Source: a virus
DNA: 35,119 bases
Direction: 5' to 3' (one strand)
IMG/VR virus record: IMGVR_UViG_3300024354_000035
Coordinates: 1-35,119 of that record
A program made the translations under genes and the position numbers. The notes under the pieces were generated by a model, which ran no database searches, was not told where the DNA came from, and saw nothing but the letters and a program-made list of their open reading frames with translations. Shown here in pieces: positions 31,570 through 34,051 of the stretch (positions are counted from its first letter, which is position 1; every line of letters starts with the position of its first letter).

Positions 31570-31740
31570 ATGACAAAAGATCAACTCGTCCAACTCGCTG
31601 GCTCACAAGCCAAACTCGCCAGGATTCTCGGGATCAGTCGAACTGCCGTGAACTACTGGAAACAGAAAATCCCACCGCTCAGGATGTACCAGCTAAAAGA
31701 ATTGCGTCCTGAGTGGTTTAAGGCCAAATCTGATGTATGA
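31570..31740 (+). CDS. Cro-like helix-turn-helix repressor
   Basis: A 56-aa frame missed by a 60-codon cutoff: MTKDQLVQLAGSQAKLARIL, then GISRTAVNYWKQKIPPLRMY and QLKELRPEWFKAKSDV. The helix-turn-helix is SQAKLARILGISRTAVNYWK (12-31), and the PLRMYQLKEL..EW ending is typical of Cro/YdaS-type proteins. It is the first rightward gene. The Shine-Dalgarno is poor, and a TATCAT box (31558-31563) lies so close that the mRNA may be nearly leaderless. Confidence 0.82.
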   Translation: MTKDQLVQLAGSQAKLARILGISRTAVNYWKQKIPPLRMYQLKELRPEWFKAKSDV

Positions 31741-32110
31741 TGCGAACCGTCTAGAGTGGCATCTAGGCGCTGAAAGTTGTCAACGAAACCCCGCAGGGTA
31801 CTGTGTGGTCTTGTCGTGTAGCAAGCGAGTCTTTTGGACAACTTTCAATCGCCTTGCTGCTGTTCTCGCCAAGAACCAAGACCACAGAGCATCTTGCGGG
31901 GTTTTTGTTTTTGGCCTAGACCGTCAGGGCGCGATAGCTGATGGCCTGAATGGGCTGAACCCAAGAAACACCGACACTGCGACACACCCCGCAGCTTGCC
32001 GACCAGCGTTGATCAAGCGACTGGTAAAGCACAGGATACATGGTGGAAACAAGGTCTTGTGTATAAGCGAATTGATCCGTCCAGCGCACTTGGTCGCTTT
32101 TGTTTTTTAA
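31733..32110 (+). CDS. Icd/Ash-like overlapping reading frame, doubtful
   Basis: A 125-codon open frame starting on the cro stop and crossing the structured RNA. Its middle (CGVFVFGLDRQGAIADGLNG, LNPRNTDTATHPAACRPALI) resembles frames annotated as Icd/Ash-type proteins near RNA-immunity loci of phages; the VFVF is encoded by a T-run that could be a terminator. The first 55 codons coincide with paired RNA, so if a protein is made its start is probably further in. Coding status is uncertain. Confidence 0.3.
   Translation: MYDANRLEWHLGAESCQRNPAGYCVVLSCSKRVFWTTFNRLAAVLAKNQDHRASCGVFVFGLDRQGAIADGLNGLNPRNTDTATHPAACRPALIKRLVKHRIHGGNKVLCISELIRPAHLVAFVF
31748..31912 (+). ncRNA. Structured regulatory RNA with pseudoknot and terminator-like 3' end
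   Basis: Pairings seen: an 8-bp hairpin at 31748-31769 (loop GTGGCA); AAACCCCGCA (31786-31795) with TGCGGGGTTT (31895-31904); nested inside it TGTGGTCTTG (31804-31813) with CAAGACCACA (31877-31886); and GCAAGCGA (31821-31828) with TCGCCTTGC (31849-31857, one bulge). GAAAGTTGTC (31772-31781), outside the main stem, is perfectly complementary to GACAACTTTC (31837-31846) in its loop, giving a pseudoknot or alternative fold. The 3' end is a GC stem plus TTTTTGTTTTT. Function by analogy (P4 CI, P1/P7 C4 antisense RNAs) is inferred. Confidence 0.7.
31986..31994 (+). repeat. Second copy of ACCCCGCAG (first at 31788-31796)
   Basis: This 9-nt direct repeat lets the segment TGCGGGG (31895-31901) pair either upstream or downstream. 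A second repeated element, GGTCTTGT (31807-31814 and 32053-32060), follows in the same order and is complementary to 31877-31883. The layout resembles seqA/seqB/seqC of P4 immunity. Confidence 0.6.
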
Positions 32111-32187
32111 GGCAATTTAAGGTGAATGAAGATGAACAAAACGATGGAGCAAGGTGGTCTATCCACCCTTGGAGAACCTATGTCTAA
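31996..32187 (+). CDS. Possible small gene before the replication gene
   Basis: A 63-codon frame (TTG start) reading QDTWWKQGLVYKRIDPSSAL, then GRFCFLRQFKVNEDEQNDGA and ending HPWRTYV. Its stop overlaps the ATG at 32180 by 8 bp, the same junction seen elsewhere in this genome, which favours a real gene. The frame is open upstream to a stop at 31940 but has no better start. A terminator-like hairpin lies within it. It conflicts with the overlapping 31733-32110 frame. Confidence 0.35.
   Translation: MPTSVDQATGKAQDTWWKQGLVYKRIDPSSALGRFCFLRQFKVNEDEQNDGARWSIHPWRTYV
32065..32108 (+). terminator. Terminator-like hairpin with competing 5' arms
   Basis: AAGCGA (32065-32070) pairs with TCGCTT (32094-32099), with an inner CCA/TGG pairing, followed by TTTTGTTTTTT. 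A second upstream arm, AAGCGAC (32015-32021), can pair with the same GTCGCTT (32093-32099). Two alternative arms for one terminator suggest regulated termination before the replication gene. Confidence 0.55.
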
Positions 32188-32656
32188 AACATTTCAATGT
32201 AAACATTGCGTTGGGTTTTTTTCCAAATACCAATGTTCAGCAACTTTGTTTGGGGAATGCGATTGTCCAAAGTGTCAAGGTTTCTGCAAATGCAATCAGG
32301 TAGAAAAATTTGACGATTTTTGGCAAGCATGGCCTAAAAGCAATCGCAAAGGCGCAAAGTCTGAATGCAAAAAAAGATGGCTCAAAGGTTTTTATGACCA
32401 TTGCGCTGATCAGATCATCAAACACGTGGAATGGATGAAAACCACCGATCAATGGCGTAAAGACAACGGTGCGTTTATCCCCGCTCCATTGGTCTACCTC
32501 AACCAACAACGCTGGGATGGCGCAGAAGTGCCTGAGATGCCTTCAAAAACCGCTGTTGACCCCGTACTCACCAGGATGGCTGAAGAACGCTCTAAAGCCG
32601 TTCCTATGCCCGACCACATCCGTGAGAAATTGGCTCAGATTCGGGGCAAAGTGTGA
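32180..32656 (+). CDS. Replication organiser-like protein (lambda O / DnaT-type C-terminal domain)
   Basis: The preferred start is the ATG at 32180 (GGAG upstream); 32126 is an alternative adding 18 residues. The product is 158 aa. The N-terminal 40 residues are Cys-rich (CKHC, then CDCPKCQGFCKC), a probable zinc module. The rest has DDFWQAWPKSNRKGAKSECK, KHVEWMKTTDQWRKDNGAFI and PAPLVYLNQQRWDG, a module common at the C-terminus of phage replication proteins that load host helicase. No polymerase or helicase is encoded, so this is the likely initiator. Confidence 0.68.
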   Translation: MSKTFQCKHCVGFFSKYQCSATLFGECDCPKCQGFCKCNQVEKFDDFWQAWPKSNRKGAKSECKKRWLKGFYDHCADQIIKHVEWMKTTDQWRKDNGAFIPAPLVYLNQQRWDGAEVPEMPSKTAVDPVLTRMAEERSKAVPMPDHIREKLAQIRGKV

Positions 32657-33416: not shown

Positions 33417-33722
33417 ATGAAAAAACTTCTTTTAGGGTTGCTTTTCTGCGGAATGGCACACGCAGATTCAATCGCTACGCTGAACAACAAAGCGGGCGGG
33501 ATGATTGTTCTAACTGATGTGCCGTGCAAAAACGACATGGGGTTTTATTCCTATACGTCGAGTCAAACCTCATCCACCCAGTTTGGCTGTTGGTGGTCTG
33601 ATGACACCATGATTCACATTGTCTGGCTGGCTGACAAGGATTTACGCTCCTACCCGATCAGCGCTTTTACCGTCAACATTGAGAAAGCCACCAAGCTCAA
33701 AAAGAACCAGGAGCGGTATTGA
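33417..33722 (+). CDS. Exported (periplasmic) protein, unknown
   Basis: A 101-aa product from the ATG at 33417; the longer frame from 33351 lies in the Cys-rich gene. It has a signal peptide MKKLLLGLLFCGMAHA with an A-H-A/D cleavage site. The mature part is about 85 aa with two Cys (about residues 37 and 57) that may form a disulphide, and the stretch SIATLNNKAGGMIVLTD. Related phage proteins exist but are of unknown role. An envelope role such as superinfection exclusion or lysis timing is inference. Confidence 0.65.
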   Translation: MKKLLLGLLFCGMAHADSIATLNNKAGGMIVLTDVPCKNDMGFYSYTSSQTSSTQFGCWWSDDTMIHIVWLADKDLRSYPISAFTVNIEKATKLKKNQERY

Positions 33723-34051
33723 TGAACCCAGAAGACCACGCAGAAGCCATCCGAGAACTCTCACCCCACTATGGCGAGGCAAAAGCCCAGCGCATCTACC
33801 TTGAGGAGTTCCGCAAGTCCAAAAAGGCCATGCTCATGCGTGATGCTCTTCTCAACGGGATTGAGGCCGCGAACCATCAGGAGCGTGAAGCCTACTCAAA
33901 CCCTGAGTACCTGTCCCTTCTAAAAGGTCTGGCAACCGCGATTGAGAAAGAGGAAACCTTGCGCTGGCAACTTGAAAGCCACAGGCTGGAGATTGAAATT
34001 TGGCGCACCCGTGAAGCAACCAACAGACAAACGGACAATGCACACCGATGA
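33722..34051 (+). CDS. Helical phage protein, unknown
   Basis: A 109-aa protein from the ATG sharing a base with the previous stop (TGATG). It is highly charged and helical: ELSPHYGEAKAQRIYLEEFR, KSKKAMLMRDALLNGIEAAN, then a heptad-like C-terminus (KEETLRWQLESHRLEIEIWR). It is a recurrent small protein of phage nuclease operons, possibly DNA- or nuclease-associated. Confidence 0.62.
   Translation: MNPEDHAEAIRELSPHYGEAKAQRIYLEEFRKSKKAMLMRDALLNGIEAANHQEREAYSNPEYLSLLKGLATAIEKEETLRWQLESHRLEIEIWRTREATNRQTDNAHR

Follow-up and report, generated by a model that had tools for sequence, protein, structure and literature searches.

What occupies the interval between a Cro-like regulator gene and a replication gene in this phage, if not another gene? 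The window is the whole stretch of 35,119 nucleotides that was analysed, an IMG/VR phage contig (IMGVR_UViG_3300024354_000035) with P22-like portal and coat, Terminase_3, ERF and YqaJ genes. The interval is bordered by two genes:

31570-31740 (+): Cro-like regulator gene, 56 aa, directly 5' of the RNA described below (Pfam P22_Cro, E 8e-11)
32180-32656 (+): replication-initiator-like gene, probable start ATG 32180 (PHROG 9474, E 1.5e-13)

An earlier note on this DNA had described the interval as a gene-free, RNA-centred control region with a replication gene behind it, and the PHROG match agrees with the latter claim. The absence of a gene also holds. A 125-aa frame is open across 31733-32110; however, it has no Pfam match and no significant PHROG match, and the core lengths of 86 relatives are evenly spread modulo 3 (30/26/30), so that the coding reading was dropped and we regard a protein product as next to impossible.

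A conserved structured RNA

The sequence comparisons indicate that positions 31744-31914, hereafter module A, form a real, conserved and previously uncatalogued structured RNA of a freshwater phage, flanked by two early genes. It is present in at least 100 other lake-phage sequences, and the literature searched, the coverage of which was incomplete, holds no description of the family. Module A consists of the following parts:

31736-31741 (+): extended -10 box TG.TATGAT, putatively the RNA's own promoter, with a predicted transcription start at ~31747-31749 (sequence)
31748-31769 (+): hairpin P1, stem 31748-31755/31762-31769, loop GUGGCA nearly invariant (covariation)
31771-31781 (+): S1, hypervariable pseudoknot strand, partner of S2 (own versus cross pairing)
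31787-31813 (+): 5' arm of the long helix P2+P3 (covariation, exact 27-mer)
31820-31858 (+): stem-loop P4, with S2 in its loop (covariation)
31837-31847 (+): S2, partner of S1, crossing P2/P3 (own versus cross pairing, sequence check)
31862-31876 (+): hairpin P5 (99.1% of cells paired, double changes)
31877-31904 (+): 3' arm of P3+P2 (covariation, complementarity)
31902-31914 (+): U-tract UUUUUGUUUUUGG 3' of the P2 GGGG, where module A probably ends in an intrinsic terminator or an attenuator (relatives)

All the pairings named in the earlier note are present where it had placed them. Folding the region, one of the checks that it had suggested, gave z = -4.35 and z = -3.39 with no shuffle as good, the main arms and the crossing helix being far beyond chance. 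Relatives were collected in three ways: an exact 27-mer of the upstream arm was found in 66 IMG/VR viral stretches, a replication-protein search, blind to the RNA, yielded 80 loci with module A present in many of them, and a third, more degenerate pattern brought in diverged members. Among the 59 distinct copies in the resulting alignment, RNAalifold found 44 consensus pairs, 32 of them with compensatory changes, which bears out the covariation that the note had said to look for. In the named structure, double changes occur in 34 of 51 pairs and 90% of cells are paired, as against 33-45% in slid versions, and none of 500 shuffles attained any of five covariation measures. It should be noted that these covariation counts take in related sequences, that all the evidence is sequence, and that many contigs are fragmentary and the loci are not independent. 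The + strand tolerates G-U pairs (e.g., GU 22, UG 31 and GU 17 cells), suggesting that the conserved element is RNA rather than DNA, and RNA of the + strand.

A covariance model built from the alignment picks up diverged members, with E values of 2e-27 for locus L052 and 3e-27 for L026 (both in the training alignment) and of 1e-14 for L063, which lies outside it and is a true distant member of module A. Antisense-strand hits of the model are a palindromic shadow of the same element. The nearest annotated phages by terminase, MW202674 and MW202520, gave no hit to the module A model.

The order of the RNA is P1, the S1 linker, the basal helix P2/P3 with branches P4 and P5, GGGG and the U-tract. 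Essentially every one of the 86 distinct relatives has a TAnnnT motif, read as a sigma-70 -10 box, 18-20 nt 5' of the GUGGCA loop (counts 14+15+58); with this box at a fixed distance, transcripts should start with hairpin P1. In P1, all eight pairs show double changes and 98.5% of cells are paired; the corresponding values for P4 are seven of nine pairs and 92.5%. The long-range pairing that the earlier note had proposed between a central segment and upstream elements is confirmed by arms of 28 nt (31786-31813 and 31877-31904) that are 86% complementary, far beyond chance, and covary. Two T-rich stretches had also been pointed out; both are in the sequence, and the first follows GGG(G) in all relatives parsed.

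A hypervariable, matched pseudoknot

A third pairing in the earlier note crossed the main stem; its strands are S1 and S2. S1 and S2 are complementary at 11 of 11 positions in the window. Over 68 S1/S2 alleles, the mean own pairing is 9.0 bp as against 4.0 bp for mismatched combinations, and a pairing of at least 8 bp is reached by 90% of own pairs and 2% of cross pairs; this test compares alleles. Where two copies agree to at least 99.5% in the rest of P2-P5, their S1+S2 are just 74% identical, with more than half of such copy pairs below 70%. Loci L091 and L144, for example, are 94-95% identical around the locus, yet their S1/S2 differ. No partner of S1 or S2 was found elsewhere in the flanks from -400 to +500 nt, where own and cross values are equal. 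We conclude from these comparisons that the crossing helix is a true pseudoknot, the strands of which change together while the rest of the RNA is nearly fixed.

No part of the RNA is more invariant than the P2/P3 arms, on which the earlier note had laid its stress and which would determine specificity under its model. By the same allele comparisons, the variable, specificity-like element is the pseudoknot and not these arms. When a single contact of an otherwise near-invariant RNA is hypervariable and yet perfectly matched, this is the signature of a specificity code, and whether a phage RNA recognizes its own kind thereby becomes a question that can be put directly in the tube.

A second structured RNA downstream

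Module A is nearly always followed by a second conserved segment, module B, or by other structured-looking sequence. In the window, module B is of type I:

31915-32103 (+): module B type I, the second structured RNA (compensatory changes in 21 of 32 consensus pairs, from 19 relatives)
31978-31981/31990-31993, 32002-32025 and 32029-32037/32054-32062 (+): hairpin arms of module B (module B alignment)
32098-32110 (+): T-rich end of module B, partly conserved (sequence, alignment)

The earlier note had read two short motifs here as downstream copies of the upstream arm. The matches exist, as 31895-31902 and 31986-31993 are complementary at eight of eight positions and GGTCTTG is present at 32053-32059. 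However, when the central arm is compared with the 260 nt that follow, its longest match measures 6.1 bp at its own locus, 6.2 bp at other loci and 5.9 bp in shuffled sequence (56 distinct loci). In relatives, CCCCGCA (31987) and GGTCTTG (32053) vary freely; each belongs to an arm of a different local hairpin of module B. The supposed copies are thus chance 7-8-mers that are not conserved, and downstream copies of the seqC type were rejected statistically, since the complementarity equals that of the cross-locus and shuffled controls.

At ~60 loci a type II module B stands in place of type I, and at a few there are other downstream sequences. In 47 of 56 cases at type II loci (e.g., L037, L041, L085 and L113), no more than 34 nt separate module B from the next ORF, regardless of which gene that is. 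Such spacing is more in keeping with a leader than with a separate gene. Conservation of module B beyond the supposed terminator implies either that the U-tract cannot always stop transcription or that modules A and B form one long RNA. At L086 and L146 a short ORF-like insert lies between the modules, indicating that the two can be parted. At L149 (MW202484.1, 33533-33892), the deposited "hypothetical protein" CDS UOF77725.1 overlies the RNA region, with module B at 33624-33803; this CDS is probably a spurious gene call.

Genomic context and exchange

A replication-type gene lies within four downstream ORFs at 47 of the 64 loci in the 27-mer set; ten loci lack one and seven contigs end too soon. 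Module A also occurs 3' of the terminase large-subunit gene (L089, L113), in L146 between terminase and a portal of another type, and in regions with RuvC-like or VRR-NUC-like genes (L103, L109, L112, L119), these last names being assigned by eye from translations. The gene downstream is therefore not constant, which weakens a role tied to replication. Identical modules are found in unrelated genomic places or with unrelated flanks, and L119 and L147 are ~97% identical over ~10 kb but carry different module A sequences.

No integrase was found in the window or in the other carrying phages: a tyrosine integrase turned up in 0 of 37 records and a serine recombinase in 0 of 26, records that may be incomplete; a portal search used as a control was positive in 15 of 26. 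Module A core patterns had no copy in ~85,000 cellular genomes, and a plasmid search for the element returned nothing.

Unrelated RNAs of the same plan

Module B occurs without module A at the sequence level at 34 loci. In place of module A, the inspected loci carry a promoter, a 5' hairpin or linker strand and a hairpin of 67-136 nt ending in a U-tract; the hairpin loop and the 5' strand share a pairing of 7-9 bp (17 distinct loci among 25 listed). This pairing is 7.5 for own combinations and 5.3 for both cross and shuffled ones. One other family has 72 distinct copies in only three alleles, with the 7-bp match in 71, although the search pattern itself fixed part of the loop, and a T run in 71. 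Most of these families have no or only a weak match to the module A model, the exception being the distant member L063. One such RNA precedes a type I module B in the phage record MW202484 (Manatee Spring). The same design, a promoter and a 5' strand that pairs with the loop of a terminator hairpin, is thus repeated in RNAs unrelated by sequence, and with module A freshwater phages gain a structured RNA family that is widespread and was so far uncatalogued.

Proposed role and alternatives

As far as sequence comparison reaches, the layout of the transcription unit, the fold, the covarying pseudoknot, its hypervariability, cassette exchange and the second RNA downstream are established. The self-pairing code of S1/S2 stands on the same footing; its regulatory role is inferred. 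We propose, at about even confidence, that the locus encodes a small RNA of phages, portable and ended by a terminator, together with a leader RNA, and that it acts as a self-specific attenuator or small RNA exchanged as a cassette. Most transcripts would end in the U-tract and yield an RNA of ~160 nt in abundance, and those reading through would extend across module B to the operon behind it, here that of the replication gene. The S1-S2 contact, either a pseudoknot within one molecule (in cis) or a pairing of two same-allele copies (in trans), might set how often RNA polymerase stops or mediate recognition of the RNA's own kind, and phages would swap the unit as a cassette. This proposal draws on the covariation, G-U tolerance, fixed-distance promoter and U-tract of the relatives, on the own versus cross pairing of S1/S2 without a flanking partner, and on the unrelated RNAs of the same plan and the independent variation of A modules and flanks. 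The proposal is further supported by loci where another gene follows (L103, L109, L112 and L119), as this gene has its own promoter-like sequence, as judged by eye. More tentatively, we speculate that phages without integrase genes share a pool of alike-built RNA cassettes from several unrelated families. The matched S1/S2 strands of these cassettes would be a code by which an allele recognizes itself; selection would maintain the diversity, and phages would swap the cassettes. Such a code might let an RNA control its own termination, keep out phages with the same allele or restrict RNA assembly to one allele.

The main alternatives are an oligomeric RNA and a leader of the λ 6S/put kind. The first is suggested by ROOL (J6/8-L8) and GOLLD (L20-J13/15), where a linker-to-loop covariation of the same topology as S1-S2 proved to be intermolecular (PMC12286853). 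Modules A and B would then be one self-assembling structural RNA of ~365 nt, and hypervariability of the contact would keep assembly allele-specific. Like GOLLD and ROOL, module A is an ornate, phage-only RNA with its own promoter and a covarying linker-to-loop contact, and its conserved part is nearly always followed by a varied 3' domain. However, it is much smaller, has no Rfam match and carries a U-tract in the middle of the would-be RNA, and the 11 loci scanned had no tRNA genes, whereas GOLLD and ROOL often lie near tRNA islands. We consider this alternative rather unlikely.

The λ PR' 6S RNA and HK022 put are short promoter-to-terminator RNAs preceding an operon. An element of this kind (PR'-6S/tR' or put) would be a constitutive short RNA acting in cis on RNA polymerase, with read-through only by a phage or RNA antitermination function. 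The promoter-to-terminator units of 100-165 nt, in several unrelated sequences 5' of operons, resemble this arrangement, but an antiterminator gene was not identified, module A differs in its elaborate covarying fold and hypervariable self-pairing, and the need for S1/S2 to vary is left unexplained; such a leader is an unlikely account of module A.

A DNA-level element for replication, an origin or cruciform, would suit the frequent position near a replication gene, but is very improbable given the G-U tolerance on one strand, the promoter at a fixed distance and the copies far from replication genes.

The earlier note had interpreted the region as antisense immunity of the P4 CI or P1 C4 type, in which a central arm pairs with one or the other of its flanking copies and, in the lysogen, keeps transcription from reaching replication genes. 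The RNA-centred region before a replication gene and its crossing pseudoknot have strong comparative support, but immunity and the choice between upstream and downstream arms do not, and this model is already largely refuted; we assign it hardly any probability. The features used for comparison (seqA/seqB/seqC, a'/b' loops, and RNase P processing of C4 antisense RNA to about 77 nt) are those described previously (PMC4825925, PMC5320573). Module A does resemble P4 CI in its site before a replication gene, in a strand that pairs with an upstream copy (31786-31813/31877-31904) and in probable transcription termination. However, it has no seqC, the seqA-like pairing is a structural helix that is invariant between phages, and it is not tied to replication genes in all phages. 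P4 CI is also carried by an element able to lysogenize, whereas no integrase was found in the records of module A carriers, which may be incomplete, and no copy in cellular genomes. C4 of P1/P7 (RF01695; c4-a1b1) is likewise a phage RNA, comparable in size and with variable segments that are specificity-like; those of module A pair mutually rather than with a flanking target, and the complementarity of the central arm and of S1/S2 to nearby flanking targets was the same for own and cross combinations and at chance level. The Rfam search with the C4 model that the note had recommended found nothing: cmscan gave no hit at gathering thresholds or at E<=10, with C4, GOLLD and ROOL included. Also unlike C4, module A probably has its own terminator.

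Further elements at these loci

At 32153-32182 of the window and at the same site in relatives, a conserved hairpin GGTGG..CCACC followed by CTTGGAGAACCTATG lies 5' of the replication gene. In some relatives an ATG at the equivalent site opens a very short frame only, and a coupled leader peptide or a ribosome-binding-site hairpin is possible there. An RNA-like repeat with closing arms CCAACACGCATGGGG/CCCCAGCCGTGTTGG and core GGGTTAGCGCC lies just 5' of module A in L103, L112, L119 and L147, and the same repeat lies 3' of the second RNA family in L176, L186, L193, L196, L200 and L214. With one or more copies per phage, it looks like a further uncatalogued structured RNA.
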